Source of the DNA: Ilumatobacter coccineus YM16-304
Lineage (GTDB): Bacteria > Actinomycetota > Acidimicrobiia > Acidimicrobiales > Ilumatobacteraceae
DNA length: 64,000 nt
Direction of reading: 5' to 3'
NCBI RefSeq assembly: GCF_000348785.1
Contig: NC_020520.1
Span: 1,736,001-1,800,000, forward strand
The notes beneath the pieces are model-generated. The model ran no database searches and was not told the origin of the DNA. It saw nothing but the letters and a program-made list of their open reading frames with translations. The translations under genes were made by a program, and so were the position numbers. Shown in pieces: positions 4,713 through 52,759 of this stretch (the first letter of the stretch is position 1; the number at the start of each line of letters is the position of its first letter).

Positions 4713-4751
4713 AACCTGGTTATTTCCATCCCGGATGGAAATAACCAGGTT
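4713..4751. repeat. palindrome family A, copy 1 (bidirectional terminator or REP-like)
   Basis: This is a perfect 39-base palindrome with 19-base arms (AACCTGGTTATTTCCATCC and its complement) around a single C. It sits between convergent genes ending at 4709 and 4843. Near-identical copies lie at 26608 and 34313. The arms hold A/T runs but there is no classical T-tract, so it may be a bidirectional terminator, a REP-type element, or both. Confidence 0.85.
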
Positions 4752-26607: not shown

Positions 26608-26646
26608 AACCTGGTTATTTCCATCCGGGATGCGAATAACCAGGTT
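26608..26646. repeat. palindrome family A, copy 2
   Basis: A 39-base palindrome with AACCTGGTTATTTCCATCC as left arm and two substitutions in the right arm (GGATGCGAATAACC). It lies between the acyl-CoA synthetase and typA, both on the plus strand, so here it would act as a one-way terminator or a REP-like element. Confidence 0.85.
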
Positions 26647-30927: not shown

Positions 30928-33123
30928 CTACGGGCCGTCGACGACGGCGCCGTCGGTCTGGTGGAGGTCGACGCCGATGTTGTCGTGATGCGTCAGGTCG
31001 GGTGAGTCCCACACGACGAGCCCGACGCGGCAGTCCTCCCAGTGGTTGCCGCCGACGTGGCACCGTGCGGCACCGGCCTGGACGAGGCAGCCGGAGTCGC
31101 CGCCGAGTGCCGCGTTGCCGTCGATCACCGCGCCGACGCCGCCGTCGACGTCGACGGCACGCATGGTCGATCGGAGGTGGTTGGCGTGGACGTGTGCGTC
31201 TTCGGTCCGGTCGAGGTGCACGCCCCACCAGCGTGCCGTCATCGTGTTGCCGCGGATCACGGTGCCGGTCGATTCGGTGGCGCGGACGGCGCAGAGATGA
31301 CCGCCGAATCGAGTCGATTCGATCGTCTGGCCTCCGCCACCGACGAGTTCGACGCCGACGTCCCACCCGTTGCCGGTGAAGGCGCATCGCGAGACCGAGA
31401 GGCGGTCGGCGTTGTGAGCGACCACACCGCGGCCGGTGACCGCCCGCAGCATCACGTCGTCACCGGTGACCACGACGTGGCCGCCGACGCTGCACCCGAG
31501 GATGGTGGCGAACGTGCCGGTGACCTCGACGAGCACGGGTGCGACCGGTTCGGATCGGGCGCCGGAGGCGTCGCTGACCACGGCGAGGTGCTCGATGCGG
31601 GCCGACCGTTCGACGGTGAGCGCCGGTGCCGGCGCGACGATGCCGTGTCGCGTCGCTCGGATGATCGTGCGATTGCTGCCGAGGCCGCGCATCACCACGC
31701 CGCTCGGCACGACCGCCGGGCCGAGGTATTCGCCTTCACCGAGTTGCACGATGTCGCCGGGTCGGGCACCGGCGAGGAGCGGGGCCAACTCGATCGGCGC
31801 CGCCTCGGCAGGAGTGAACAGTTCGATCGGACGGTCGGCCGGTTCGATCGAGAGTCGATACACGGCGACGCCGATCGCGTCGTCGTCGAACCGTTCGGAC
31901 GGATGCAACGGCGGTTCGGTGATGCGGAGCCCGTCGTGGCGCTGCTCGAACCGCACGTCGACGTCGCCGCCACCATCGAGGCCGCCCAAACGGTGTGCAG
32001 CGGTGATGCGATGCGCCCCCGCGTCGATCGTGGCGAACCGCCCGGCACCGGCGAGGTCGACGGCGTACACGGTGCCCGGCGTCGGGCCCGCCACGAGCCG
32101 TGTGGTGGCGTCGCCCCACGTCGCCCACGGTGCCGACGTCGCGAGCACGTGGTCGTATCGGCGAATCCACGTGCCGGCGTCTCGCATCGGAGCGGTCTGC
32201 AGCCCGGGAACCGTGCCATCTGCGGTGGGGCCGACGGCCAGCACCAGGTTGCCGCCCTTGGCCACGACCTCGGTGTAGAGCGAGACGATGTCGAGACCGC
32301 TCAGGTGGTGTTGGCGGCGTTCGTTGCGGTTGTGGCCGAGACCGAGGCCGATGGTGCGTGTGAGTTCCCACGGGCCGGGTGTGATGTCGTCGGGACAGTC
32401 GTTGTCGAACGTGCGAACCAGTTCGGGTCCGCCGTCGGGAACGTCGGCCTTCGACGCTCTCCAGCGGTCGTCGACGATGACCGACGGGTTGATCGCCCGA
32501 ACCGCTCGCAGCAGGTCGGCGGTTCGCCAGTGCCCGGCGTCGTGGCCCCAGTGTCCGTCGCCGCGCAGTCGGCTGCTGCCGTACCGGTCGACGAGGTCGA
32601 GCACATCGCGATGGAGGACGTCGGTCACGTAGTCGTCGCTCGGATACCGCTGGTCACCCCAGTCGAGGAGCGAGTACGACGTGCCGAACGTGAGGTCGTT
32701 TCGTTCGCAGGCGGCGGCGAACTCGGCGAGCACGTTGCGTGCCGGCCCGTGCTCGGTCATCCGACGCGAGGAGTTCGGTGCATCCCACCACGACCAACCG
32801 TCGTGGTGTTTGGCGACGATCATCGAGTACCCGGCACCGGTGTCGCGGGCGAGGCGTGCCCAGTGCTCGGCGTCGAAGCGCTCGAAGGTGAGCAGCGGAA
32901 CGAAGTCGTCGTAGTGCTCGATGTGACCCCAACGGTCGCGGTGATGGGCGAGCACCTCCACCATCGGCTGCGGGTGCAACACGACGTCGTCGAGTTCGTC
33001 GCCGAGGTGGGCGCGGTACCACGCCGGGTCCTGGCCGATCGGTGCCCACGCGGGAACGGCCGCCGCCGTGGTGTGGACGAGCATCCCGAGCCGTTTCGTG
33101 TTCCACCAGTCGGGCATGCCCAT
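30928..33123 (-). CDS. GH29 alpha-L-fucosidase-like domain fused to a right-handed beta-helix
   Basis: The 731-residue protein starts like GH29 enzymes (MPDWWNTKRLGMLVH), with KHHDGWSWWDAPNSSRR (105-121), a nucleophile-region RLRGDGHW (D189 at the expected position) and VIVDDRWRAS. From about residue 400 it changes into a Pectate-lyase/NosD-like parallel beta-helix (GDIVQLGEGEYLGPAVVPSGVVMRGLGSNRTII and then many rung-like HVVVTGDD, GTVIRGNTM and VIDGNAAL motifs). No signal peptide is seen, although an export route is not excluded. The start is uncertain: ATG 33123 or 33117 fits the family, and GTG 33144 is possible. It probably cleaves fucosylated glycans, with the helix binding polysaccharide. 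Confidence 0.8.
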   Translation of the reverse strand: MGMPDWWNTKRLGMLVHTTAAAVPAWAPIGQDPAWYRAHLGDELDDVVLHPQPMVEVLAHHRDRWGHIEHYDDFVPLLTFERFDAEHWARLARDTGAGYSMIVAKHHDGWSWWDAPNSSRRMTEHGPARNVLAEFAAACERNDLTFGTSYSLLDWGDQRYPSDDYVTDVLHRDVLDLVDRYGSSRLRGDGHWGHDAGHWRTADLLRAVRAINPSVIVDDRWRASKADVPDGGPELVRTFDNDCPDDITPGPWELTRTIGLGLGHNRNERRQHHLSGLDIVSLYTEVVAKGGNLVLAVGPTADGTVPGLQTAPMRDAGTWIRRYDHVLATSAPWATWGDATTRLVAGPTPGTVYAVDLAGAGRFATIDAGAHRITAAHRLGGLDGGGDVDVRFEQRHDGLRITEPPLHPSERFDDDAIGVAVYRLSIEPADRPIELFTPAEAAPIELAPLLAGARPGDIVQLGEGEYLGPAVVPSGVVMRGLGSNRTIIRATRHGIVAPAPALTVERSARIEHLAVVSDASGARSEPVAPVLVEVTGTFATILGCSVGGHVVVTGDDVMLRAVTGRGVVAHNADRLSVSRCAFTGNGWDVGVELVGGGGQTIESTRFGGHLCAVRATESTGTVIRGNTMTARWWGVHLDRTEDAHVHANHLRSTMRAVDVDGGVGAVIDGNAALGGDSGCLVQAGAARCHVGGNHWEDCRVGLVVWDSPDLTHHDNIGVDLHQTDGAVVDGP

Positions 33124-33236
33124 CGGAGAGACAGTCTCGCGCACCTCGACGAGTCGCGCTGCTTCCCAGATCCCGACGACGAAGTCCTGCCTCGATTGAT
33201 GTCGGAGTGCCCCGGTGTGATTAACGTCAGACCCCT

Positions 33237-34280
33237 ATGAAGCTCTCGATGATGATCAACTACTCCGGCGACTTCCATGCCGACGTCGCGAAGGTCGTGG
33301 AACTGGAGAAGGCCGGCCTCGACGTCGTGTGGGTGCCGGAGGCCTACAGCTTCGACGCCGTGTCGCAGATGGGGTACCTCGCGGCGAAGACCGACACGAT
33401 CGAGATCGGCTCGGCGATCATGAACGTGTTCTCTCGCACGGCGACGTGCATGGCGCAGACCGCTGCCGGTCTCGACTTCGTGTCGAACGGACGGTTCATC
33501 CTCGGCCTCGGCGCATCCGGCCCGCAGGTCATCGAAGGCTTCCACGGCGTGCCGTACGAGAAGCCGATGCCGCGCATCCGTGACTACATCAACGTGTGCC
33601 GGATGACGCTCAAGCGTGAGAAGGTCGTGTACGACGGCCCGACCGTGCAGGTGCCGCTGCCCGAAGGCCAGGGCACGGGCATGGGCAAGCCGCTCAAGAT
33701 CATCAACCACCCGGTCCGCGACAACGTCCCGATCTTCTGGGCCAGCCTGATGGGGCTGTCGGTCAAGGCGACGGCGCAGCACGCCGACGGCTGGCTGCCG
33801 ATCTTCTTCGACCCCGAGAAGTACCACGACGTGTGGGGCGACGAGATCAAGGCCGGCAACGCCGAGCGTGATCCCGAACTCGGCAAGCTGCAGATCTCGG
33901 CTGGCGGCATGGTGGCCATCGGCGACGACCTCGTCGGCGACAAGGCCAACGCGATCCTCGACTTCGCTCGTCCGAGCACGGCGCTGTACGTCGGTGGCAT
34001 GGGCGCCCGCGACAAGAACTTCTACAACACGATCATGCAGAAGTACGGCTACGTCGACGAAGCGATCGCCATCCAAGACAACTACCTCGCTGGTGAGAAG
34101 GAGAAGGCGGCGTCGCTGGTTCCGGCTGAGATGCTGTCGAACACCAACCTGGTCGGTCCGGCCGGTTTCGTGAAGGAACGTCTGGCGGCCTACAAGGAAG
34201 CCGGTGTCACGCACCTCAGCGTCAACGCCGTCGGTGCCGACCCGGTGAGCACCATCGAGCAACTCAAGTCGATGCTCTGA
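33237..34280 (+). CDS. LLM-class F420-dependent oxidoreductase
   Basis: The 347-residue protein has MKLSMMINYSGDFHADVAKVVELEKAGLDVVWVPEAYSFD, QTAAGLDFVSNGRFILGLGASGPQVIEGFHGVPYEKP and PIFWASLMGLSVKATAQHADGWLPIFF. This set is typical of the TIGR03559-like F420 enzymes of actinobacteria. It probably reduces a steroid-like or other lipophilic ketone or alkene. The ATG at 33237 matches the conserved first strand. It is divergent from the GH29 gene and convergent with the VWA gene; palindrome family A (copy 3) lies between the convergent ends. Confidence 0.88.
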   Translation: MKLSMMINYSGDFHADVAKVVELEKAGLDVVWVPEAYSFDAVSQMGYLAAKTDTIEIGSAIMNVFSRTATCMAQTAAGLDFVSNGRFILGLGASGPQVIEGFHGVPYEKPMPRIRDYINVCRMTLKREKVVYDGPTVQVPLPEGQGTGMGKPLKIINHPVRDNVPIFWASLMGLSVKATAQHADGWLPIFFDPEKYHDVWGDEIKAGNAERDPELGKLQISAGGMVAIGDDLVGDKANAILDFARPSTALYVGGMGARDKNFYNTIMQKYGYVDEAIAIQDNYLAGEKEKAASLVPAEMLSNTNLVGPAGFVKERLAAYKEAGVTHLSVNAVGADPVSTIEQLKSML

Positions 34281-34312
34281 GTCGAGCCAGCTCGAACACC
34301 AACCTGATTCAG

Positions 34313-34347
34313 CCTGGTTATTTCCATCCCGGATGGAAATAACCAGG
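34313..34347. repeat. palindrome family A, copy 3
   Basis: A perfect 35-base palindrome (17-base arms starting CCTGGTTATTTCCATCC around one C). It differs from copy 1 only at the outer bases. It lies between convergent genes ending at 34280 and 34367 and is suited to stop transcription from both sides. Confidence 0.85.
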
Positions 34348-34366
34348 TTCGGTCAGACGATGCCTC

Positions 34367-35356
34367 TCAGACCATGCCTCGGAGCCACCACAGGCTCATC
34401 GCGTAGGCGATCACGAGGAGGAGGAACGAGGCCAGCGCATAGCGCCAGGTCAGTTCCTTCACGATCTCGATCTCCTCGCCGAGCGTGTCGCCGAGCGATT
34501 CGCGGATCTCGTCGTACGCGTCGGCGAGTTCGTTGCCGGTCTGTGCTTCGAACGACTCGCCACCGGTGAGTTCGGCGACGAGCTCGAGTTCGGCTGGTCG
34601 CACCGGCACCTCGACCCGCTCGCCCGACACCGGGTCGATGATCGAACCGCTGTCGGTGCCGAACGCGATGGTGAACACGGGGATGCCGCCGTCGGCGGCC
34701 AGCTGGGCTCCCTCGGGGGTGCTGCGGCCGACGGTGGTCTCGCCGTCGGTGAGCAACACGATCACGCCGGGTGCGAGGTCGGGGTCGCGGTTCTCGTCGT
34801 CTTCGACGGCGTTGAGCAACAGGTTGGTCCCGGCCGACAGCGCGTCGCCGATCGCCGTCGACAGGTCGAGTTCGAGATCGTCGATGTGGCGGGTGACGAT
34901 GCTCCGGTCGAGCGTCGGGTTGACCTCGATGGTCACCACGCCGGCAAACGAGATGAGGCCGACCTCGACGTCGTCGTCGACCTCGTCGATGAAGTTCTGC
35001 GCGGCGATCTTCGCCGCCTCGAGCCGGTTCGGGTCGACGTCTTCGGCTTCCATCGACAGCGACACGTCGAACAGCACCAGGATTCGGCCGTCGCTGTTGG
35101 TGCGTTCGGTCGAGCGATCGACGGGGCGGGCGATGGCCACCACGGCAGCGGCGAGGCCGAGCAGTTGGACGGCGGCGATGAGGTGTCGCCGCCACCGGGG
35201 CCGCTTGGGGGCGACCTTGTCGAGCAGATCGACCTGGGTGAACCGAACCTGTGCAGCCCGTCGCCAGCGCAGTGACGCGACGTACGCAGCAGCCAGGAGC
35301 GCGACGACGAGCAGGAGCCAGAGGCGGCCGCCGGCGAGGAAGTCTCCGGGGATCAT
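34367..35356 (-). CDS. VWA-domain membrane protein (BatA-like)
   Basis: The 329-residue protein has an N-terminal membrane helix (RLWLLLVVALLAAAYVASL), a second hydrophobic stretch around residue 60-76, a von Willebrand factor A domain and a C-terminal helix (YALASFLLLVIAYAMSLWW). The MIDAS motif is complete: D97-x-S99-x-S101 (VLFDVSLSM), a Thr/Asp pair in VLLTDGETT. Together with the MoxR ATPase and DUF58 protein upstream it forms a MoxR-DUF58-BatA unit, associated with chaperone-type assembly and stress tolerance. The VWA gene starts 7 bases after the DUF58 stop. Its partner proteins are unknown. Confidence 0.9.
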   Translation of the reverse strand: MIPGDFLAGGRLWLLLVVALLAAAYVASLRWRRAAQVRFTQVDLLDKVAPKRPRWRRHLIAAVQLLGLAAAVVAIARPVDRSTERTNSDGRILVLFDVSLSMEAEDVDPNRLEAAKIAAQNFIDEVDDDVEVGLISFAGVVTIEVNPTLDRSIVTRHIDDLELDLSTAIGDALSAGTNLLLNAVEDDENRDPDLAPGVIVLLTDGETTVGRSTPEGAQLAADGGIPVFTIAFGTDSGSIIDPVSGERVEVPVRPAELELVAELTGGESFEAQTGNELADAYDEIRESLGDTLGEEIEIVKELTWRYALASFLLLVIAYAMSLWWLRGMV

Positions 35357-35363
35357 CGTGCGG

Positions 35364-36338
35364 TCACCGTTTCAACACTCCGCCGCGAACGGCTTGGACC
35401 CGACGATTCTGAACGTGCTCGATGATCGAACCGAGCCAGTCGTCGGCCGTCGAGATCTCGATCAACTCGGCGCCCGACCGCCCGAGTGCATCGTTTCGAC
35501 GGTGTCGTTCGGTGGCGGCGGCCTCGCGATAGCGATCCTGCACCTTCTTGGTGACGCGGATCTCGCGGCTGAGTCCGGTCGCCGGGTCGACGAGTTCGAC
35601 CAGCCCGATGGGCGGGACGTCCATCTCGCGCGGATCGTGCACGCTGATGGCGAGCAGGTCGTGGCGCAAGCCGAGCCGACCGAGCGGGCCCTGCCAGTCG
35701 TCGCCGGTGAAGTCGGAGATCACCGCGACGAACCCGCGGCGCTTGGCGATCGCACCGACCCGTTCGAGCGCTCCGGCGAGATCGGCCCGGCCGGCGCCTT
35801 CGGCCGACGGCGCCGAGGCCAGCGACGACAGGATGGCCCGCACCTGGTTCTTGCCGGCACGCGGCTGCATCACTCGAATGTTCGGCCCGGCGACGAGCAC
35901 CGCTCCGAGACGGTTCTGGTTGCGGGCGGTCAGGAATCCGACCGTTGCGGCAGCGGCCATCGCCGTCTGCGCCTTGTCGTTCTCGGTGGTGCCGAACCGC
36001 ATCGTCGCCGACACGTCGATCACGACCCAGGCGAGGAGATCGCGGTCGGCGATCTGTTCGCGCACGTACGTCTCGTTGGTGCGAGCGGTGACGTTCCAGT
36101 CGATCCGGCGGACGTCGTCGCCAGGCTGGTACGGGCGTGACTCGCCCGGCTCGGAGCCGTGGCCCGGGGTGAGTCCCTGGTAGTTGCCGTGCAGCACGCC
36201 GTCGAGTCGGCGGTTGATCATGAGCTCCATCGAACGCAGCATCTCGGCGGTGGCGTCGGGCGTCGGTCCGCTGACCCACGCGTGGATCGGAGCAGGCGGG
36301 GGAGTCGTCGGAGCGGTTGTCGGCGGTGAATCGACCAC
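35364..36338 (-). CDS. DUF58-domain protein
   Basis: The 324-residue protein has the DUF58 hallmark YQPGDDVRRIDWNVTARTNETYVRE and a VWA-like fold behind it, with WVVIDVSATMRFG replacing a classic MIDAS DxSxS (D-V-S-A-T) and VAVISDF. DUF58 proteins work with MoxR AAA+ ATPases, probably as substrate adaptors. The start is GTG at 36338, 4 bases after the moxR stop; no nearby ATG gives a full domain. The N-terminal 15 residues are Pro/Thr-rich and not conserved. The gene is followed directly by the VWA gene. Confidence 0.88.
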   Translation of the reverse strand: MVDSPPTTAPTTPPPAPIHAWVSGPTPDATAEMLRSMELMINRRLDGVLHGNYQGLTPGHGSEPGESRPYQPGDDVRRIDWNVTARTNETYVREQIADRDLLAWVVIDVSATMRFGTTENDKAQTAMAAAATVGFLTARNQNRLGAVLVAGPNIRVMQPRAGKNQVRAILSSLASAPSAEGAGRADLAGALERVGAIAKRRGFVAVISDFTGDDWQGPLGRLGLRHDLLAISVHDPREMDVPPIGLVELVDPATGLSREIRVTKKVQDRYREAAATERHRRNDALGRSGAELIEISTADDWLGSIIEHVQNRRVQAVRGGVLKR

Positions 36339-36342
36339 CGCG

Positions 36343-37395
36343 TCAGCTCCGCTCGAACGCGTCGTTCGGCTTCGGCGACACCCAGTTCGCCGGCACGCTC
36401 GCGAGGATGCGCTGCACCACCTGGTCGGCGGTGATGTCACGAGCCAGCGCGTCGTAGGTGAGCAGCAGGCGGTGCCGCATGATCTCGGGTGCGAGGTCGA
36501 ACACGTCCTGCGGAGTGGCGTACGTGCGGCCTCGCAGCATGGCGAGTGCTCGTGCGCCGCGGATCAGATTGATCGTGGCGCGGGGACTCGCTCCGAGGCC
36601 GATGATCTCGCCGAGGTCGCCGAGATTGAAACGGTCGGGGTGCCGCGTGCACTGGACGAGGTCGACCGCGTACTGGCTCACCGAGCGGTCGACGAACACC
36701 CGATCGGCACGCGCCTGGAGTTCGAGGAGTTCGTCGAGGGTGATCACCTGCTGCGGCGACGGAGCATCGGTGGTGACGCCCATGCGATCGAGGATCGCCA
36801 TCTCCTCGTCGGCGGTGGGATGGTCGAGCGTGATCTTCATCATGAAGCGGTCACGCTGCGCGTCGGGCAGGTTGTAGACGCCTTCCGACTCGATCGGGTT
36901 CTGCGTCGCGACGACGAAGAACGGTGTCGGGACGGGATGGGTCACGCCGCCGATCGTGACCTGCTGCTCCGCCATCACTTCGAGCAGCGCCGACTGGACC
37001 TTGGCCGGAGCACGGTTGATCTCGTCGGTGAGGAGGAAGTTGACGAAGACCGGGCCGAACTCGACGTCGAAGGTCTCGGTCGAGCCGCGGTAGATGCGGG
37101 TGCCGACGATGTCGGACGGCAACAGGTCGGGCGTGAACTGGATGCGAGCGAACGACCCGCCGACGACGTTCGCGAGCGTCTCGGCCGCCAGCGTCTTGGC
37201 CAGACCCGGTACCGATTCGAGCAGGCAGTGCCCTCGGCAGAGCACGCCGACGAGGAGTCGCTCGAGCAGTCGGGTCTGTCCGACGATGACCTTGCGGAGT
37301 TCGAAGAAGATCTTCTCGAACGTCTCCGCGGTCGCCCGGTCGTCCATGGGAGTCGCCGGTGCCGCCGGTGTCGGAGTGAAATTGTTGTCCGTCAT
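36343..37395 (-). CDS. MoxR-family AAA+ ATPase
   Basis: The 350-residue protein has the MoxR AAA+ core. Walker A is ESVPGLAKT (60-68; the family usually has EGVPGLAKT, so here Ser replaces Gly), Walker B is LLTDEINRAP (D124, E125), VATQNPIE is sensor I, and LPDAQRDRF with LGASPRATINL follow. MoxR ATPases remodel or insert cofactors into client proteins together with VWA partners. The ATG at 37395 gives the standard length; a longer frame to 37509 is not protein-like. The gene heads the MoxR-DUF58-VWA operon on the minus strand. Confidence 0.93.
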   Translation of the reverse strand: MTDNNFTPTPAAPATPMDDRATAETFEKIFFELRKVIVGQTRLLERLLVGVLCRGHCLLESVPGLAKTLAAETLANVVGGSFARIQFTPDLLPSDIVGTRIYRGSTETFDVEFGPVFVNFLLTDEINRAPAKVQSALLEVMAEQQVTIGGVTHPVPTPFFVVATQNPIESEGVYNLPDAQRDRFMMKITLDHPTADEEMAILDRMGVTTDAPSPQQVITLDELLELQARADRVFVDRSVSQYAVDLVQCTRHPDRFNLGDLGEIIGLGASPRATINLIRGARALAMLRGRTYATPQDVFDLAPEIMRHRLLLTYDALARDITADQVVQRILASVPANWVSPKPNDAFERS

Positions 37396-37515
37396 GCCAC
37401 GGTCGAAGATAGTGGTTGCCAGGCGCGATGTGCCGTCGACCGGCGTGTGCGCGAGCGGTTCGCCACGATGTTCTCCACCTGTTTCCGAGTGGCGTGACCG
37501 CCGGCTCATAGCCTG

Positions 37516-37881
37516 GTGCGTGTGACGAGCGAGGTGAGCGACCCAGGCGAGTTCGACGATCCCGGCGTCGACGTCATCACCGCCGAGGAAACGATCACCG
37601 CCAAGGAAGCCGTCACCGCCGAGGAAGCCGCTGCGGAGCGACGAGCGTCATCGATCGAGGCGGGCCGGCGCAAGGGCGGCGCCGCAGGCGCAGCCATGGC
37701 TGGGGCGATGCTCGCGATCAGCGAGATCTACGAAGGTCCCAAGCGCGACGAGATCGTCGCCGTGTCGGAATCGCCCGACGAGCCCGGCGACATCGACAAG
37801 GACGGCATGCGCATCGACGTCGGCGACGTCAGCGTCGAATCGATCCTCCCCGACGACCAACCCCCGTCATCCGGTGTCTGA
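37516..37881 (+). CDS. small acidic protein of unknown function
   Basis: I do not recognise this 121-residue protein. It starts with GTG (37516 or 37522), has a Glu/Thr/Ala-rich stretch with repeats such as TAEETITAKEAVTAEEAA, a short hydrophobic patch GGAAGAAMAGAMLAIS, and a very acidic C-terminal half (SPDEPGDIDKDGMRIDVGDVSVES). Codon use and start context look like a real gene, and it is divergent from moxR by about 120 bases. Its last residues PSSGV and stop are written by a palindromic repeat shared with the convergent neighbour. Function is not predictable. Confidence 0.55.
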   Translation: MRVTSEVSDPGEFDDPGVDVITAEETITAKEAVTAEEAAAERRASSIEAGRRKGGAAGAAMAGAMLAISEIYEGPKRDEIVAVSESPDEPGDIDKDGMRIDVGDVSVESILPDDQPPSSGV

Positions 37882-37940
37882 CACCATTTGACCGACACCG
37901 CTTGACCGGTGCGTCATCGGGTGTCAGACACCGGATGATG
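37866..37940. repeat. palindrome family C, copies 1 and 2 (inverted pair)
   Basis: CATCCGGTGTCTGACACC (37868-37885) and its exact complement (37919-37936) face each other across 33 bases. Each arm holds an inner palindrome, GGTGTC-T-GACACC. The pair carries both stop codons of the convergent genes: TGA 37879-37881 and, on the minus strand, TGA at 37926-37924. It should work as a two-way terminator. Confidence 0.85.
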
Positions 37941-39162
37941 CGGATCGGGTGAGGTAGGCGCCGGGGCGGTCGAGGAACTTGCGGTGCCAGCGGCTCGGGG
38001 TGAGCACGAGGGCGCGCGGCTCGTCTTCGAACATCCAGCGGGCGAAGTTTCGCTTGCCCCAGTTGCCGCTGTTGGCCACCACGCGCAGCGCTCCGCGAGC
38101 ACCCCACGGTTTGGCGAGCACCGAGCCCAGCGCCAGCGACATCTTGTGGTCGGCCAGCAGGTGATGCTTCACCTCGCGCTCGTACAGGTCCGCTGCTTCG
38201 CGAGGTTGGAGCGCCCCGGCGGCGATGATCGCTTCGGCGGCGAGGCGTCCGGTGAGGAGTGCCTGGCCGATGCCTTCGCCCGTCATCACGTCGGTCGCAG
38301 CAGCAGCGTCGCCGACGAAGAACACCCGGTCGCCGGTGAGCGGGAGTTGATCGACACGCGCCGGGATCGGCCACGCGGTGTGCCGTTGCTCCATCTCGAA
38401 ACCTGCGCCGAGCGCCTCGACGATGTGCGGCCGCTCGAGTAGATCGGGCCAGATCGCTTTGATCTCCTTGCCCGTCCGTTCGCCGTCGCGCAGTACGCCG
38501 AACCCGATGTTGGCGCGGTTGCCAGGCAGCGGGAACGACCACGCGTAACCGGGCAGCAGGTCGGGCTCGAACCACACGAACAGTTGCTGTGCGGCGGGCC
38601 CGGTGACGTTCGACGCGTACTGCCGGAACCCGTGCCATTCACCGAGGTAGCCGGGCTCGTTGAGCGCGAGCGACTTGCGGATCGGGCTCCACATGCCGTC
38701 GGCGGCGATGACGTAGCGGCTCGTGATGGTGTGGTCGTCGGCCTCGATGGTGACGGTTGCGTCGTCGACGGCGATGCCGGTGTAGCCGACGCCGTCGAGC
38801 ACCGTCGCACCGGCGACGCGGGCCAACTCCACGAGGGCGTTGTCGAGTTGGAGCCGCGGCGCGACGGCGGCGTACTTGCCGGCGTCGGGGAGCGGGATCT
38901 CGACCTGGCGGCCCGAGGGCGAGCGCAGCGCGACGCCGGACACGTCGAACCAGTCGTCGACGGTGTCGGGCCGGAAGTCGAGGTGTTCGAGTTCTCGGAG
39001 CGCCAGCGTGGTGAGCCCGTCGCCGCAGCACTTGTCGCGCGGGAAGCTCGCCTTGTCGATGACGATCACCGATCGACCGGCTCGTGCGAGTTCGATCGCT
39101 GCGGCGGTCCCGGCCGGACCTGCGCCGACGATGGTGACGTCGGCGGTCAACTGGTTCGTCAT
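37924..39162 (-). CDS. geranylgeranyl reductase-family FAD oxidoreductase
   Basis: The 412-residue flavoprotein has a Rossmann dinucleotide motif VTIVGAGPAGTAAAIELARAG (GAGPAG, 13-18), KCCGDGLT, an IAADGMWS stretch and FFVGDAAAATDVMTGEGIGQALL, the pattern of the geranylgeranyl reductase and FixC-like group. It probably reduces isoprenoid double bonds, for example in menaquinone or lipid chains, but hydroxylation is also possible. The ATG at 39162 lies directly before the first beta strand. Its stop codon and last residues (SSGV) come from palindrome family C, which is shared with the convergent acidic-protein gene. Confidence 0.87.
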   Translation of the reverse strand: MTNQLTADVTIVGAGPAGTAAAIELARAGRSVIVIDKASFPRDKCCGDGLTTLALRELEHLDFRPDTVDDWFDVSGVALRSPSGRQVEIPLPDAGKYAAVAPRLQLDNALVELARVAGATVLDGVGYTGIAVDDATVTIEADDHTITSRYVIAADGMWSPIRKSLALNEPGYLGEWHGFRQYASNVTGPAAQQLFVWFEPDLLPGYAWSFPLPGNRANIGFGVLRDGERTGKEIKAIWPDLLERPHIVEALGAGFEMEQRHTAWPIPARVDQLPLTGDRVFFVGDAAAATDVMTGEGIGQALLTGRLAAEAIIAAGALQPREAADLYEREVKHHLLADHKMSLALGSVLAKPWGARGALRVVANSGNWGKRNFARWMFEDEPRALVLTPSRWHRKFLDRPGAYLTRSASSGV

Positions 39163-39241
39163 TGCCCGGCAGGATAGGAGCTGGATCGACGGGTGCGGAA
39201 GGGTTTGGTGCGAGCGCTCGACGGTCGGCGAGGTGATTTCG

Positions 39242-40066
39242 TCAGGGAGCCTGGAGCTGGACGCGTCGAGCAGGCTGCATGCCGTCGCGCTCCCAGGTCG
39301 TTGCCAGCGTCTGGTGAACCCGACGTCGCCACTCCGGGAGCAGCGCGACGGCGGCGTCGCCGGGGCACGCGGTGTAGGTGACGGCTCGGTGCGGCGAGAT
39401 GACCGGTGTGGTGATCGTCGCTCCCGCCGGGAACTTGTCGGAGCCGCGTGACACGAACGTCGTCGAGGCGTCGCGGAACGTCCCGAGGTCGTAGCGCCCG
39501 GCGAGCCACGCGAGCGTGCGTACGAGACTGTCCTGCGCGGCAGCGGTCGGTGGCTCGGCCACATGGTTGCCGAGCAGGCAGACCAGCTGGGAGTAGCCCT
39601 GGTTGCCACCGGTGGCGCTCGCCTCGACCGGACCGTCGAGCGATCCGGCTCGCCCCTCCCAGACCGAGCCGTCGGGAGCGACGAAGAAGTTGTAGGCGAC
39701 GTCCTGCCAGCGCTTCTCCGGGCCGGTGTGAAACGCGTAGATGCTGCGGATGACCGAGCGCGGATCGGACGTGTTGAAGCTGGATGCGCTGTGGTGCACG
39801 AGGAGGAACTTCACCTCCTCCGGCGGGATGTGGGCCGTCGGCGGGAGGTCGGCACCCCACTCGTCGCGCCGATGGATGCTGAGCCCGTCGGCCACGGTGA
39901 GCGCTGCGGCGGCCGGGCGTGCTCGGCTCGGCGTGGCGGTGGTCGGAGATCGGTCGTCGGTGTCGAGCGCGAGGGCGTCGGTCACGTGGTCGCCGCAGCA
40001 GATCGCCGCAGCGGTCGCGGCGGCCCCGGCGAGCATCTGCCGTCGCGTCGACTTCGATCCACCCAT
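39242..40066 (-). CDS. secreted PGRP-type N-acetylmuramoyl-L-alanine amidase
   Basis: The 274-residue protein has a twin-arginine-like start (STRRQMLAGAAATAAA) followed by two Cys, so Tat export with possible lipidation. The peptidoglycan-recognition/amidase_2 domain keeps zinc ligands H91 or H92 in LLVHHSAS, H226 in ISPHRAVTYTA and C234 in ACPGD, with Y125 in AYNFFV and WEGR typical of active amidases. It should cleave the lactyl-peptide bond in peptidoglycan outside the cell. It is divergent from the SDR gene at 40091, with a gap of only 24 bases, so promoters must overlap coding sequence. Confidence 0.88.
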   Translation of the reverse strand: MGGSKSTRRQMLAGAAATAAAICCGDHVTDALALDTDDRSPTTATPSRARPAAAALTVADGLSIHRRDEWGADLPPTAHIPPEEVKFLLVHHSASSFNTSDPRSVIRSIYAFHTGPEKRWQDVAYNFFVAPDGSVWEGRAGSLDGPVEASATGGNQGYSQLVCLLGNHVAEPPTAAAQDSLVRTLAWLAGRYDLGTFRDASTTFVSRGSDKFPAGATITTPVISPHRAVTYTACPGDAAVALLPEWRRRVHQTLATTWERDGMQPARRVQLQAP

Positions 40067-40090
40067 CGCTCACAGCCTACGGTCGGGCCC

Positions 40091-41020
40091 ATGACTGGAT
40101 TGTGTGAAGGGCGTGTCGTCATCGTGACCGGAGCGGGTCGAGGGATCGGGCGCGAGCACGCGCTCAGCCTCGCTCGCCACGGCGCGAAGGTGGTCGTGAA
40201 CGACCTCGGTGGAGCGGTCGACGGTTCGGGTGGCGACTTGTCGCCGGCCGGTCAGGTCGTCGCCGAGATCACCGAGATGGGTGGCGAAGCGGTGGCGAAC
40301 GGTGAAAGCGTCTCCGACTGGGAGGGCGCCAAGCGCATGGTCGATCAGGCGATCGACACATGGGGACGCCTCGATGGTCTGGTCAACAACGCCGGCATCC
40401 TGCGCGACCGCATGCTGGCGAACATGAGTGAAGAAGAATGGGATGCCGTCATCGACGTGCATCTCAAGGGCACGTTCGCTCCGGCACGCCACGCCGCGGC
40501 CTACTGGCGTGAGCAGTCGAAGGCGGGCAAGGAGGTGTCGGGTCGCATCGTCAACACGACGTCGGTGTCGGGCATCTACGGCAACATCGGCCAGACCAAC
40601 TACGGCGCCGCCAAGGCCGGCATCGCGTCGTTCACCAACATCGCCGCGCTCGAACTGGCGCGCTACGGCGTCACGGTCAACGCGGTCGCTCCCGTCGCCC
40701 TCACCCGCATGACCGAAGGTCTGGGCCCGGCACCCGAGACCGACGAAGACCGTGAGGCGCAGGCCCCGAGGTGGATCGCACCGATCGTCACGTGGCTGTG
40801 CTCGGAAGAAGCAGCTGGTGTGACCGGCCGCGTGTTCGAGGCGTCGGGTCGATTCCTCGCTGTGGCCGAACCGTGGGTGCGCGGACCGTCGATCGACCCG
40901 ATCGACGACCCGACACTGCTCGGTGCCGCAGTCGAAGGACTGCTCGCCGAGGCACGCGGCAACACGGGGATGAACGGCGTGACCGGAGGCCCGCCGCAGA
41001 ACCTGCTCGGCGGTTCGTGA
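40091..41020 (+). CDS. short-chain dehydrogenase, 3-hydroxyacyl-CoA dehydrogenase type
   Basis: The 309-residue SDR has VTGAGRGIGREHALSLARHGAKVVVNDLGGAVDGSG, NNAGILRDRMLANM, a NTTSVSGIYGN Ser and YGAAKAG with the catalytic Tyr/Lys. It resembles the SDR at 4843 and the dehydrogenase part of multifunctional beta-oxidation enzymes. It ends in a C-terminal extension with PPQNLLGG. The MaoC hydratase follows 64 bases later on the same strand; hydratase plus dehydrogenase would supply two successive beta-oxidation steps. The ATG at 40091 fits the first strand. Confidence 0.9.
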   Translation: MTGLCEGRVVIVTGAGRGIGREHALSLARHGAKVVVNDLGGAVDGSGGDLSPAGQVVAEITEMGGEAVANGESVSDWEGAKRMVDQAIDTWGRLDGLVNNAGILRDRMLANMSEEEWDAVIDVHLKGTFAPARHAAAYWREQSKAGKEVSGRIVNTTSVSGIYGNIGQTNYGAAKAGIASFTNIAALELARYGVTVNAVAPVALTRMTEGLGPAPETDEDREAQAPRWIAPIVTWLCSEEAAGVTGRVFEASGRFLAVAEPWVRGPSIDPIDDPTLLGAAVEGLLAEARGNTGMNGVTGGPPQNLLGGS

Positions 41021-41084
41021 CGCCGGGCGTCGAACGGCGCCGTCCGATTCGCCGCGATCGTCGCGTCGTGCTTACCGTCGGGTC

Positions 41085-41933
41085 ATGCCCTTGAACCCAG
41101 ATGCCGTCGGCGCCACCTCCGATCCGATCGAGGTCTCGTGGACCTCCAAAGATGCGCTGCTCTACGCGGTCGGCATCGGCGCAGGCCACGAAGAGCTCCC
41201 GTTCACGACCGAGAACTCGGCCGACATCGAACAGGCTGTGTTCCCGACGTTCCCCGTGGTCATCGGGTACGGCCGCGGCTCGGCGATGGGCAAGATCGGC
41301 ACGTTCAACCCGGCCATGCTCGTCCACGGTCAGCAGGCGATCACGCTGCATCGCCCGATCCCGGTCGAGGGGACCGTCACGATCAGCGGCGAGATCATCG
41401 GCATGTACGACAAGGGCAAGGCGGCCGTCGTCGAGTCTCGCAACACCGCGGTGATGGACGGCGAACCGCTCTACACGACCACGATGTCGGCGTTCATCCG
41501 CGGCGAAGGTGGTTGGGGCGGCGAGCGCGGCCCGTCGGGTCCGAAGAACGTGCCGCCCGAATCGGCTCCCGATCACACCGTCGGCTACCAGACCTCTCGC
41601 GATCAGGCGTTCGTGTATCGGCTGTCGGGTGACCGCAACCCGTTGCACACCGACCCGAAGTTCGCGGCGATGGGCGGGTTCGACACGCCGATCCTCCACG
41701 GCCTCTGCACCTACGGCTTCACCGGTCGCGCGTTGCTCCACACGGTGTGCGACAGCGACCCGTCGAAGTTCCGCCACATCGAAGGTCGCTTCGCCTCCCC
41801 GGTGTTCCCCGGCGAAGCGCTCACCATCCGCATGTGGTCGGACGGACCGGGCAAGACGCTGTTCACCACGAGCGCCGGCGAGGGCGACACCGAGCGCATC
41901 GTCATCGACCAAGGCCTCCTCGAACACTCCTGA
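41085..41933 (+). CDS. MaoC-type enoyl-CoA hydratase 2
   Basis: The 282-residue protein is a double hot-dog hydratase 2. The catalytic motif YRLSGDRNPLHTDPKFA holds D183, N185 and H188, followed by FDTPILHGLCTYGFTGRAL, which is typical of active (R)-specific hydratases. The N-terminal half is the degenerate hot-dog with substrate-binding residues. It hydrates trans-2-enoyl-CoA to (R)-3-hydroxyacyl-CoA in fatty-acid or sterol side-chain degradation. It fits the SDR upstream. The ATG at 41085 was chosen by length; a hairpin of family B begins 8 bases after the stop. Confidence 0.92.
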   Translation: MPLNPDAVGATSDPIEVSWTSKDALLYAVGIGAGHEELPFTTENSADIEQAVFPTFPVVIGYGRGSAMGKIGTFNPAMLVHGQQAITLHRPIPVEGTVTISGEIIGMYDKGKAAVVESRNTAVMDGEPLYTTTMSAFIRGEGGWGGERGPSGPKNVPPESAPDHTVGYQTSRDQAFVYRLSGDRNPLHTDPKFAAMGGFDTPILHGLCTYGFTGRALLHTVCDSDPSKFRHIEGRFASPVFPGEALTIRMWSDGPGKTLFTTSAGEGDTERIVIDQGLLEHS

Positions 41934-41940
41934 CCTGTCG

Positions 41941-41986
41941 TTTTACCCCTGCGATCCGTCACGGGTGACGGATCGCAGGGGCAAAA
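41941..41986. terminator. hairpin family B, copy 1 (bidirectional terminator)
   Basis: A 16-base perfect stem (CCCCTGCGATCCGTCA and complement, loop CGGG) is flanked by TTTTA on the left and CAAAAA on the right, so it reads as a terminator in both directions. It lies between the convergent MaoC gene (ends 41933) and acyl-CoA synthetase (ends 41994). Confidence 0.9.
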
Positions 41987-41993
41987 ACGTGAG

Positions 41994-43562
41994 TCAGCCG
42001 AGGATCTTGTTCTCGTGGCCCTCCCAGTACGGGTCGCGGAGCTTGCGCTTGTAGAGCTTGCCGGTCGGAAGTCGCGGCAGTTCGGCGGCGAAGTCGATCG
42101 AGCGCGGCACCTTCTGGCGTGAGAGGTGCTCGGCGCAGAACTCGGTGAGTTCGGCGGCGAGGTCGTCGTTCGGCTCGAACTCCGGCATCGGCTGCACCAC
42201 GGCCTTCACCTCCTCGCCCAGGTCGGCGTTGGGGACGCCGAAGACCGCCGCGTCGGCGACCTTCGGGTGCGTGATGAGTAGGTTCTCGGTCTCCTGCGGA
42301 TAGATGTTCACGCCGCCCGAGATGATCATGAACGTCGCCCGGTCGGTCAGGTACAGGAACCCGTCGGCGTCGACGTAGCCGACGTCGTTGACCGTGGTCA
42401 TCGAACCGTCGCTCGACGTCGCCTCGTCGGTCTTGTCGGGGTCGTTGTGGTACTCGAACTCGGTCGCGGTCTTGAACCAGATCGTCCCCGGCTCGCCCTG
42501 GGGAAGTTCGTTCATCTCGTCGTCGGCGATGAACAGGTCGCCGAGCACGATCTTGCCGACCGTGCCCTTGTGCGCGAGCCACTCCTCGGAATTGCACGCC
42601 GCGAAGCCCAGCCCCTCGGTGGCGCCGTAGTACTCGTGGATGATCGGGCCCCACCACTCGATCATCTGCTCCTTCACCTGCACCGGGCACGGCGCCGCCG
42701 CGTGCACCGCGATCTCGAGCGACGACAAGTCGTAGCGGTGGCGGTCCTCCTCGGGCAGCTTCAGCATCCGGCTGAACATGGTCGGCACGAGCTGCGTGTG
42801 GGTCACCGAGTACTGCTCGATCAGCCGCAGGTACTCCAACGGGTCGAAGCGTTCCATGATGACGACGGTGCCACCGACGCGCAGGGTGAGGTTGACCGCC
42901 GCCTGCGGAGCGGAGTGGTACAGCGGAGCGGGCGACAGGTACACCATGTCTTCGCGGTAGTGCCACAGGTTGGAGAGGAACGTGAAGAGCGGCATCTGCT
43001 CGCTCGGTGGCTGCTCGGGGAGCGGTCGGATGATCCCCTTCGGTCGTCCGGTCGTGCCCGACGAGTAGAGCATCGCGGTGCCGAGGAACTCGTCGTCGAT
43101 CGGTGTGCCCGGGTGCTCGGCGACCGCCGTGGCGAAGTCGACGACGCGAGCCGAGCCGACATCGGTGTCGGGTTCACCACCGTCGACGACGAGGACGAGC
43201 GACACACGAGGACACTGGGGGAGTGCGTCGAGCACGACATCACGTTTCGCTGCCGAGGTGATCACGACCTGCGATTCGGAGTGGTCGACGATGTACGCGA
43301 CCTCGTCGGCGGTCAGGTACGAGTTGACGCACGTGTAGTAGAGCCCCGACCGCTCGCCCGCCGCGCACGACTCGAGGTACCGGTCGTTGTTCTCCATGAA
43401 CACCGAGTAGTGGTCGAGGCGTCGCAACCCGTGAGCCCGGAGCAGGTGCGCGAGTCGGTTGGCCCGCCCTTCGAACTCGGCGAGGGTGACGGTCGCGCCG
43501 GTCGACGCCATGACGAAGGCCGGCCGGTCGGGATGCTGTGCGGCGTACTGGGTTGCGTACAT
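41994..43562 (-). CDS. acyl-CoA synthetase (AMP-binding)
   Basis: The 522-residue ANL ligase has LGTAMLYSSGTTGRPKGIIRPL as P-loop, YYGATEGLGF, GYVDADGFLYLTDRATFMIISGGVNIYPQETE and a C-terminal LPRLPTGKLYKRKLRDPYWEGH with the catalytic Lys. It belongs to the FadD13/long-chain group in style; the substrate cannot be told. The ATG at 43562 starts the homologous part; an open stretch to 43604 is not protein-like. The MaoC gene downstream is convergent, with the family B hairpin between, and palindrome family C lies upstream. Confidence 0.9.
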   Translation of the reverse strand: MYATQYAAQHPDRPAFVMASTGATVTLAEFEGRANRLAHLLRAHGLRRLDHYSVFMENNDRYLESCAAGERSGLYYTCVNSYLTADEVAYIVDHSESQVVITSAAKRDVVLDALPQCPRVSLVLVVDGGEPDTDVGSARVVDFATAVAEHPGTPIDDEFLGTAMLYSSGTTGRPKGIIRPLPEQPPSEQMPLFTFLSNLWHYREDMVYLSPAPLYHSAPQAAVNLTLRVGGTVVIMERFDPLEYLRLIEQYSVTHTQLVPTMFSRMLKLPEEDRHRYDLSSLEIAVHAAAPCPVQVKEQMIEWWGPIIHEYYGATEGLGFAACNSEEWLAHKGTVGKIVLGDLFIADDEMNELPQGEPGTIWFKTATEFEYHNDPDKTDEATSSDGSMTTVNDVGYVDADGFLYLTDRATFMIISGGVNIYPQETENLLITHPKVADAAVFGVPNADLGEEVKAVVQPMPEFEPNDDLAAELTEFCAEHLSRQKVPRSIDFAAELPRLPTGKLYKRKLRDPYWEGHENKILG

Positions 43563-43604
43563 GCCGCGACCGTAATCGCCCGCTCCGAGCCACCCGGACG
43601 CCAC

Positions 43605-43643
43605 CGCTGCGTCATTCGGTGTCTGACACCGAATGACGCAGCG
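43605..43643. repeat. palindrome family C, copy 3
   Basis: A perfect 39-base palindrome: 19-base arms (CGCTGCGTCATTCGGTGTC and complement) around a single T. It lies 3 bases past the proS stop (minus strand, 43647) and 43 bases before the acyl-CoA synthetase start (43562). It shares TCAT-CGGTGTCTGACACC with the copies at 37866 and 37913. Confidence 0.88.
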
Positions 43644-43646
43644 GGG

Positions 43647-45413
43647 TCAGGGCGTGCAGGTCTGGACGAGGTGGGCGACCGCGTCGGCGAGCGCGATGTC
43701 GGCGCTGTCGCCGGACTTGCGGTCCTTGACCTCGATGGTCGGCTCGTCGGCGGCGATGCCGCGGCCGCACACGGCGATGGTCGGCACGCCGATCAGTTCG
43801 GCGTCTTTGAACCGCACCCCCGGCGAGACCTTGACGCGGTCGTCGAACAGCACGCGGAGTCCGGCGGCTTCGAGTTCGGCCGCCAGTTGCTCGGCTGCGG
43901 GCCGCTGCGGGCCGTCTTCCTTGCCCGCCATGATGAGGTGGACGTCGGCGGGAGCCAGCTCGCGCGGCCAGCACAGCCCGATGTCGTCGACGGTGGCTTC
44001 GGCGACCGCGGCCAGGCAGCGGGTGACGCCGACGCCGTACGAGCCCATCGTGGGCGTGGCCGGTTTGCCGTCTTCGCCCTGCACCCACAGGTCGAGCGAT
44101 TCGGCGTACTTGCGGCCGAGCTGGAAGATGTGACCGATCTCGATGCCTCGCGCGATCTCGACCTCGGACGAGCACGCCGGGCACGTGTCGCCAGGCAGGA
44201 TCTCGGCGGCTTCGATCACGCCGTCGGGCGTGAAGTCGCGGCCGGCGGTGAGGCCGATGACGTGACGGTTGTAGGCGTCGGCGCCGGTGATCCACGTGGT
44301 GCCGGTGACCACCCGCGGGTCGACCAGGTAACGGATGCCGGTGGCGTTGTCGAGGCCGAGCACACCCGGTCCGATGTAGCCCTTGGCGAGCGCGGGGTAC
44401 TGCTTGAAATCGTCGTCGCCGAACGGCACGGCCTCGGCCGGGGCGACCACGGCCTCGAGTCGCTTCATGTCGACATCCCGGTTGCCCGGAATGCCGATCG
44501 CCAACGGCTCGACCGTGCCGTCGGGGTGCTTGAGGTTGACGACGAGGTTCTTGAGCGTGTCGGCGGCCGTCCAGTCGCGGTCGGAATGGCGCAGCGCCGG
44601 ATCGGCGTTGACGAAGTCGACGAGCGTCTCGATGGTCGGCGTCTTCGGCGTGTCGTGCACGACCGCGTCGGGAAGACCGGCGAGGTCGATGTCGTCGGGC
44701 ACCGGAGTGGTGACCGCTTCGACGTTGGCCGCGTAGTCGCAGTTGGTGCAGCGGATGTAGGTGTCTTCCCCCACCTCCATGGGCGACAGGAACTCCTCCG
44801 ACTGCGATCCGCCCATCGCTCCCGACATGGCCGACACGATGACGTAGGGGAGTCCGAGGCGTTCGAACAGCGAGATGTACGCGTTGCGGTGCATCTCGTA
44901 CGACTCGTCGAGACCCTCGTCGGTGAGGTCGAAGCTGTACGAGTCCTTCATCACGAACTCGCGCGTGCGCAGCAGGCCGGCGCGCGGCCGGGCCTCGTCG
45001 CGGTACTTCGTCTGGATCTGGTAGATGCTCAGCGGCAGATCCTTGTACGACCCGATGATGTCCTTGACCATCAGGGTGAACATCTCCTCGTGCGTCGGAG
45101 CGAGCAGGAAGTCGGCACCGCGCCGGTCCTGCAACCGGAAGAGGTTGTCGCCGTACTCGGTCCAGCGGCCGGTCTGCTCGTACGGTTCGCGGGGGAGCAG
45201 CGCGGGGAAGTGGACCTCCTGGGCGCCCGCCGCGTTCATCTCCTCTCGGACGACGCGTTCGATGTTGCGGTACACCTCCCAGCCGAGCGGCAGCCAGGCG
45301 AAACCACCAGGGGCGACGCGGCGGATGTATCCCGCACGGACGAGCAGCCGGTGGCTCGGAACCTCGGCGTCGGCCGGGTTGTCGCGCAGGGTCTTCAGGA
45401 GCAGTTTCGACAT
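43647..45413 (-). CDS. proS: prolyl-tRNA synthetase
   Basis: The 588-residue protein is a bacterial-type class II ProRS. It starts with [43 protein letters not shown], carries motif 2 in [19 protein letters not shown], an insertion domain of about 190 residues (editing INS domain, with the YxxG-like [12 protein letters not shown] zinc-like Cys pair), a second Cys pair CPAC, and motif 3 GSYGVGVTR. The anticodon-binding domain closes the protein. It charges tRNA-Pro and clears mis-charged Ala. ATG 45413 was preferred to 45422 for spacing. Confidence 0.95.
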
Positions 45414-45466
45414 GCGGAGCACGCCGAGAACCTATCTGCCGAGAGGGCGCGCCGACCGGAGGGTTG

Positions 45467-45988
45467 TCAGCCTGCGGTGTCGCCGTCGATCGATTCGCGG
45501 ATGAGGTCGGCGTGGCCGCAGTGGCGGGCGTACTCCTCGATCATGTGGACCATGATCCAGCGGAGGCTGTAGCGCTCGCCGCTCGGGCTGGTGGCCGTCG
45601 ACAGTTGGTCGAGCGAGTCGGCAGCGGCGGCGCGGCGTCGAGCGTCGTTGCACGCCTCGTCGAACTCGGCGAGCAGTTGGTCGACGGGCAGTGTTTCGGC
45701 TCGCGTCATCTCGGCGTCGGGGTCGGCTTCCCAGTCGAGTGCGGCGGCGTACGCCGGTTCGGGCTGCCCGTCGAAGCGTTCGAGGAACCAGCAGTTCTCG
45801 ACGCCGGTCATGTGGCCGATGAGCCGGGCGAGTGAGAGTGACGACGGTGGCAACGTGATGTTGAGTTGCGTCGAGTCGAGGCCCCAGGCGCGATCGAGGA
45901 ACGCGGCCCGGTACTGGTCGAGGAACGCGTTCAACGTGGTCCGTTCGTCGGCGGCGAACGGAATCGGGGGAACGGGCGGGCGAGTCAT
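45467..45988 (-). CDS. DinB-superfamily (DUF664) protein
   Basis: The 173-residue protein has the DUF664/DinB bundle: FLDQYRAAFLDRAWGLD, LSLARLIGHMTGVENCWFLERF (His ligand) and SLRWIMVHMIEEYARHCGHADLIRE with the second and third His. These proteins bind a metal and are proposed thiol transferases or detoxification enzymes. It lies on the minus strand between proS and the MFS gene, with gaps of about 53 and 64 bases. Start ATG 45988. Confidence 0.85.
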   Translation of the reverse strand: MTRPPVPPIPFAADERTTLNAFLDQYRAAFLDRAWGLDSTQLNITLPPSSLSLARLIGHMTGVENCWFLERFDGQPEPAYAAALDWEADPDAEMTRAETLPVDQLLAEFDEACNDARRRAAAADSLDQLSTATSPSGERYSLRWIMVHMIEEYARHCGHADLIRESIDGDTAG

Positions 45989-46052
45989 GTGGCGACCGTA
46001 GGCGACCCGGCGTTCGCCAAGACGACGAGTTGCGTGCCGTCGAGGTTCGTGT

Positions 46053-52711: not shown

Positions 52712-52759
52712 GTTCTGCCCCTCAGATCCGTCAGCGATGACGGATCTGAGGGGCAGAAC
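52712..52759 (+). terminator. hairpin family B, copy 2 (terminator of the infB operon)
   Basis: A perfect 22-base stem (GTTCTGCCCCTCAGATCC continuing to GTCA, loop GCGA) followed by CTGTTTTC. It lies 53 bases after infB and is related to the hairpin at 41941 by the core GATCCGTCA. Confidence 0.9.

Follow-up and report, generated by a model that had tools for sequence, protein, structure and literature searches.

In the genome of Ilumatobacter coccineus YM16-304 (G000, searched as one contig of 4,830,181 bases) we analyzed a window of 64,000 nucleotides (NC_020520.1, positions 1,736,001 to 1,800,000), in which two convergent genes meet at a pair of facing copies of a short palindromic repeat. 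The repeat provides the stop codon and the last residues of both genes, and the features of this junction, in window coordinates, are the following:

37522-37881, plus strand: gene of 119 aa ending QPPSSGV-stop
37865-37893, plus strand: palindrome copy 1, core GGTGTCTGACACC at 37873-37885, T-centre on the plus strand
37867-37881, plus strand: codons TCA TCC GGT GTC TGA within copy 1, the SSGV-stop of the plus-strand gene
37894-37906, plus strand: lone half of the repeat, GACACCGCTTGAC, between copies 1 and 2, fitting the half-site consensus GACACCNNNTGAC (by eye)
37912-37940, minus strand: palindrome copy 2, core at 37920-37932, inverted with respect to copy 1
37924-37941, minus strand: codons for the ASSGV-stop of the minus-strand gene, within copy 2
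37924-39162, minus strand: gene of 412 aa for an FAD-dependent oxidoreductase of the geranylgeranyl reductase family (TIGR02032 over cut-off), ending RSASSGV-stop

Both TGA stops form the centre of the palindrome (GGTGTC-TGA-CACC), and the initial annotation was right in attributing the PSSGV-stop of the plus-strand gene and the ASSGV-stop of the minus-strand gene to the repeat, as the SSGV-stop and ASSGV-stop codons fall inside copies 1 and 2. The copies it had placed face to face at 37868 and 37919 are also present, with a shift of one base in the second: CATCCGGTGTCTGACACC begins at 37868 and its exact reverse complement at 37920. Beyond the 13-base core each copy is imperfect as a palindrome, and the two are near-perfect complements of one another, with 36-nt arms that are 81% complementary. 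The 119-aa gene has no match in Pfam or NCBIfam, and its 3' end is kept as convergent neighbour in relatives. A third copy lies further downstream:

41994-43604, minus strand: gene for an AMP-binding enzyme, whose longest open reading frame (ORF) begins inside copy 3, the real start being probably further in
43604-43644, plus strand: palindrome copy 3, perfect, 41 nt, arms of 20 and a one-base centre, core at 43618-43630
43647-45422, minus strand: prolyl-tRNA synthetase gene proS, with tRNA-synt_2b, tRNA_edit and HGTP_anticodon domains

This copy had been described as perfect, with a one-base centre and located beside proS, all of which holds (the proS stop codon, 43647-43649, is two bases from its edge), but the length of 39 bases and the start at 43605 have to be corrected to the values listed. 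The predicted RNA fold has -58/-59 kcal/mol for the junction and -40/-41 kcal/mol for copy 3, with z-scores of -7.8 to -10.2 for both, and no U-tract follows. A search of positions 33000-46000 at gathering scores gave no match to a known Rfam element. The window contains 3 exact copies of the core; with up to two mismatches there are 7, compared to a shuffle mean of 2.7, and 7 was reached by 2 of 100 shuffles. Taken alone, this mismatch-tolerant count is weak evidence, and it is the genome count given below that settles the repeat as non-chance. Likewise, the window has 14 palindromes with arms of at least 9 bases (3-8 in eight Markov shuffles), among them 3 with a one-base centre (0-3 in shuffles), and such counts alone prove nothing because the one-base-centre number matches the shuffles.

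Genome-wide, the exact core is present in 79 copies, 38 forward and 41 reverse, compared to none of the reversed pattern, which rules out a repeat that arose by chance. After merging copies up to 120 bp apart, 61 sites were obtained (44 single, 16 double and 1 triple). The consensus of the 79 core-aligned copies reads CGTCA-NNN-GGTGTC-T-GACACC-NNN-TGACG; at its left end C is conserved in 67, G in 66, T in 72, C in 77 and A in 77 copies, and in the GACG of the right end G in 79, A in 76, C in 65 and G in 64. A search with fixed arms and any centre gave 37 mismatch-free places, 36 of them with the exact core. The pattern GGTGNCTGNCACC has 84 genome matches, compared to 79 exact ones, and therefore nearly all of them are the exact core. 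Half-sites gave 112 matches in all, and about 7 places outside the 79 copies were counted by eye among the 100 matches listed; lone half-sites were therefore dropped as candidate cleavage footprints, not being abundant. The 13-mer was not found among the matches listed from the open literature (open library only).

The association with stop codons raised by the initial annotation is borne out on the genome scale, as the nearest 3' end is at most 15 nt away or overlapped at 45 of the 61 sites; a 5' end is as close at 3 of 42. By the orientation of the neighbouring genes, 37 sites are co-directional, 19 convergent and 5 divergent, and 34 of the 37 co-directional sites are nearer to the 3' end of the upstream gene (p 1.2e-7). 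Convergent gaps are over-represented compared to other gene pairs (19/61 versus 28/192, p 0.007), with the 192 pairs drawn from the fetched DNA around the copies and not from the whole genome. Of 270 called stops, nine fall inside a copy; random boxes average 1.9 and reached 9 in one of 1000 trials. No dedicated mechanism for writing stops is needed to account for this excess, given the general closeness of the copies to 3' ends, a closeness that is probably due to their being tolerated there and not to targeting. The tails of the nine genes are SSGV/SGV-stop in five and VSDTx-stop in four cases, corresponding to the two ways in which the repeat is read to a stop; in detail, three of its six frames contain an in-frame stop (SSGV-stop, and RHPVSDTG-stop on either strand). 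Further genes with a stop inside a copy are found at genome positions 353937-355133, 2457969-2460500 and 4272768-4273448.

The profile PF01797 (Y1_Tnp) has five hits in the genome, and one of these genes is bracketed by the repeat:

2039216-2040061 of G000, outside the window: Y1/HUH transposase of 281 aa, PF01797 over cut-off

Inverted copies stand on both of its sides, two per side, at 2039128 and 2039157 (minus strand) and at 2040053 and 2040117 (plus strand), and the first downstream copy encodes the end of the protein, ASSGV-stop. H60, H62 and Y119 are invariant across 19 aligned relatives, with the motifs NHFH and YIHANP. The structure model (pLDDT 86) shows a helical C-terminal extension and a disordered stretch of the final seven residues, and its top fold match in the PDB is 4er8 (E 2.9e-5, TM 0.43/0.70), a repetitive extragenic palindrome (REP)-associated tyrosine transposase (RAYT) with its hairpin. 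The locus is common to our genome and to G034, with 81-85% identity in the flanking DNA and 50-51% in the transposase. The neighbouring genes, recognised by eye, are presumably folC and ndk. A transposase search of the genome contigs gave 21 loci with 24-35% identity, mostly from other phyla.

Insertion of the repeat at both gene ends, one of the two origins the initial annotation had considered for the SSGV tails, is well supported because the orthologues have no exact repeat and none of them ends in SSGV: in the minus-strand gene 0 of 29 orthologues have this ending and 0 of 29 loci the exact palindrome, and for the plus-strand gene 0 of the 16 orthologues at those loci (E 1e-20 or better) end in SSGV. 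This also rules out SSGV as the native end of either gene. The minus-strand protein reads RPGAYLTRS followed by ASSGV, and its relatives often stop at RPGAY plus 0-4 residues, for example RPGAYTRS-stop in L086 and RPGAYRS-stop in L077. Three other repeat-stopped genes have 21 homologues in the genus (2, 6 and 13), all without the repeat, and the gene at 353937-355133 has no homologue at E 1e-20 or better. In G076, the homologue of one repeat-stopped gene has a different palindrome, GGTGCCAGGCACC, shortly past its stop. The convergent stops are -10 to 43 nt apart in 15 placeable relatives and 42 nt apart in our genome.

Among 101 genomes of the family the 13-mer is present in 17, with at least eight copies in four of them (79, 80, 22 and 8) and one or two, the level of the reversed control, in the other 13. 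A relative of the transposase is likewise found in 17 of the 101 genomes, among them three of the four with at least eight copies. The core remains the same and the arms vary, with GCCATC...GATGGC in G034 and GTCAGGCA...TGCCTGAC in G064. Besides the transposase tail, EASSGV-stop is encoded by one of the 26 palindromes at the fetched loci of G034, and none of 20 in G064 encodes such a stop. Many draft contigs of G034 begin or end in the palindrome, so its copies are under- or double-counted. As a separate observation, many copies in G064 (L155-L170) have only one full arm (TGCCTGAC), unlike in our genome.

The flanks were surveyed for 27 transposase hits, a number that includes fragments and one gene listed twice. 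At 8 of 27 an upstream palindrome with at least eight paired bases was present, centred 44-55 nt ahead of the mapped start, and at 10 of 27 there was a downstream palindrome. These palindromes differ by enzyme (GGTGTCTGACACC, TTGTGTCTGACACAA, GGGGTCAGACCCC, GGTGCCTGGCACC and TTTGTCTCTGAGACAAA), with CAG as the centre of 7 of the 8 upstream palindromes and CTG as that of all 11 downstream ones. Read by eye, the downstream palindrome encodes the end of the transposase in our genome (ASSGV-stop) and in G076 (QSCV-stop), and the tail runs through the palindrome in G064 (VKVVPGTTLT), G007 (EIVPGTIS) and G034 (RVSDTGW, at a contig end).

Compared to known systems, this one is of the REP/RAYT kind and probably nearest to the branch of terminal inverted repeats (TIRs) and TIR-associated tyrosine transposases (TIRYTs). 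With REP/RAYT systems it shares 79-80 copies that are mainly extragenic, hug 3' ends and convergent pairs and form doublets, as well as a dedicated low-copy transposase with Y1_Tnp domain, HuH and one catalytic Tyr, the gene of which is flanked by inverted repeat copies. According to the parts of the literature covered here, TIRYT transposases carry inverted, partly self-complementary TIR repeats without a GTAG tag, and some TIRs form moderate genome-wide families of singles, dimers and groups, with GGGGWSAS in most (Di Nocera 2013, PMC3733652); the term Actinobacteria has a count of 0 in the searched parts of that paper. Our tyrosine transposase is likewise flanked by inverted self-complementary repeats without this tag. 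GGGGWSAS is exact in the G052 palindrome GGGGTCAGACCCC and has one mismatch in our GGTGTCAG. Of the TIRYT protein features (NH[YF]H, Y[IV]HxNP, SS and a helix-turn-helix (HTH)-like C-terminal extension), the motifs and the helical extension were seen, whereas an HTH model had no match in the transposase. The present system differs in its motif and in that the stop codon and the tail of the transposase lie in the palindrome centre. Subclass 2.1 TnpA enzymes, probably identical with TIRYT, are reported in the consulted part of Quentin 2018 (PMC6006769) to have no REP-like repeats nearby, a statement that would be questioned if our enzyme falls into this subclass.

That REPs lend stop codons is already published: as described in the sections of PMC3733652 used here, the ends of GTAG REPs often supply flanking ORFs with their stop codon (TAG), and these REPs hug 3' ends. 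Membership in the GTAG REPs was rejected, as there is no GT[AG]G foot and the outer consensus of the 79 copies is CGTCA/TGACG; moreover, our element is near-symmetric with its polarity set by the central base, and its stop is a TGA at the centre, not a TAG at the tip. CGTC REPs, for which the same sections give a CGTC tag, an AT-starting stem, a loop of 4-5 bases and no transposase (PMC3733652), resemble our copies in the CGTC-AT start and the five-base centre. Strict membership was rejected here as well, since the tag is paired (GACG is equally conserved opposite) and the arms differ in G034 (TGCC) and G064 (GTCAGGCA); in contrast to CGTC REPs, our repeat has a bracketed transposase. In E. 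coli, REPs near stop codons are reported to stall ribosomes if the hairpin is at most 15 nt from the stop (Liang 2015, as described in PMC12306157). The likeness is a hairpin within this distance, whereas in our repeat-stopped genes the stop lies inside the hairpin.

In our view the repeat is likely a palindromic element resembling REPs (TIR-type) and belonging to a resident Y1/HUH transposase of RAYT/TIRYT type, the gene of which lies between its copies. Observed were the 79 copies, a transposase gene that they bracket and that has its motifs intact, sites for the most part not shared between species, the crowding at 3' ends and the repeat-free gene ends of relatives. From this architecture and by analogy to TnpA-REP systems, the transposase would process single-stranded copies and spread them. 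Copies would survive mainly beside stop codons, where they would be nearly harmless, and because three of six frames contain an in-frame stop, a copy landing a few bases before a native stop would replace it and add a short tail to the protein. Both convergent genes at the junction would have been re-ended in this way by two inverted copies, which form a REPIN-like doublet around a lone half, and a hairpin would then lie at or across each mRNA 3' end. By analogy, an effect of this hairpin on mRNA ends or termination is likely, and it probably protects the mRNA 3' end or hinders read-through or termination, as REPs do in E. coli. The odd shared protein tails SSGV and VSDTx of this genome would thus be footprints left by a mobile palindrome, an explanation of use in annotation, and REP-like systems with a transposase would be extended to this actinobacterial group. 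As a tentative and rather doubtful extension, transposases of the 2.1/TIRYT type may generally keep REP-like populations of near-symmetric palindromes that are polar by one central base (CAG upstream, CTG downstream), and the centre, by doubling as a stop, may turn them into a mobile 3'-end cassette of tail, stop and hairpin, delivered to gene ends, its own included, by a stably inherited and possibly domesticated transposase. The single central base provides a testable polarity rule.

Several points weigh against this explanation. Spread by the transposase is inferred and no movement was observed. The NCBI model for REP-associated transposases scores 56.4 bits, below its cut-off of 80, which is not a defining feature of the wider RAYT/TnpA-REP class, and phmmer of the transposase against PDB sequences gave 0 matches. 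The genome G024 (63% complete) has 8 copies and no match in the transposase search. In our genome, arm positions 7-9 pair in 46, 57 and 71% of copies compared to 52, 48 and 62% for shuffled arms, so that a covarying stem outside the core is unsupported at these positions, and perfect arms of at least 11 occur in 17 of the 79 copies. The genes were called with a simple codon-usage caller and checked by eye against ORFs, and the nine genes with a stop inside a copy include the transposase itself. One homologue (L173) of another repeat-stopped gene ends in ...AESSP, near to ...AASSGV. Finally, cousin sequences occur at the junction in 2 of 15 relatives: a script found a palindrome between the convergent stops in one of them, G034 (GTTGGTGACTGTCACCAAC, 9-bp arms), and G012 was seen by eye to have GGGTGTCTGACCC, which lacks one base of the core. 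The site may therefore have been occupied earlier.

It is unlikely that the repeat stood at the junction already in the genus ancestor, with later decay or loss in most relatives, which would make the SSGV ends old. The G012 sequence and GGTGACTGTCACC of G034 in the same interval would fit such a history, as would the transposase locus common to G034 and our genome, whereas the complete lack of SSGV ends in the 29 and 16 orthologues argues against it. So does the poor sharing of sites: only 2 of 23 G034 repeat loci match a G000 repeat site, both being sides of the transposase locus, the remaining 21 have no such match within 200 bp, and in G064 2 of 17 loci match, where the database held only the DNA around G000 copies and every lack of a match was counted as unshared.

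We also regard a host origin as quite improbable. In that reading, selection or gene conversion would have multiplied the palindromes as 3'-end signals of the host, either bidirectional terminators or mRNA protectors that lack a U-tract, and the transposase would be incidental. The strong predicted hairpins, the crowding at 3' ends and convergent pairs and the different perfect palindrome at the G034 junction are in line with such signals; however, the core is nearly fixed, far beyond what a hairpin needs, its copies flank an HUH transposase in inverted orientation while sister transposases flank other palindromes, and 13 of 15 relatives (14 of 15 by script) have no such palindrome between the same genes. 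A role at 3' ends and mobility can be compatible. That the gene ends predate the palindrome and came to form it by drift, with the match to the repeat family being secondary, is hardly credible and already contradicted by the same 13 bases occurring 79 times and by nine genes sharing two tails, the single ...AESSP homologue notwithstanding.

Further palindromes were observed beside those of the bracketed transposase. A second transposase of the family in our genome, L122 (G000:3756494-3757294), is flanked by CCGGACGGTTTGTCTCAGAGACAAACCGTCCGG and its CTG counterpart, and further pieces are located near other repeat sites (L046, L057, L064 and L065). Another Y1 transposase, L130 (G000:1023635-1024453), has the upstream palindrome AAGTTGATTACATCGCTCCGGGAGCGATGTAATCAACTT, with a matching piece in L068. 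In the window itself, a second palindrome family with the core CCTGGTTATTTCCATCC-C-GGATGGAAATAACCAGG has near-identical copies at 4713-4751 and 34313-34347, a related match at 26615 and another copy at L072 near 479; a transposase for this family was not found. Long hairpins with GATCCGTCA...TGACGGATC arms at 41946-41981 and 52712-52759 are perhaps ordinary terminators, and the first of them sits between convergent genes ending at 41933 and 41994.

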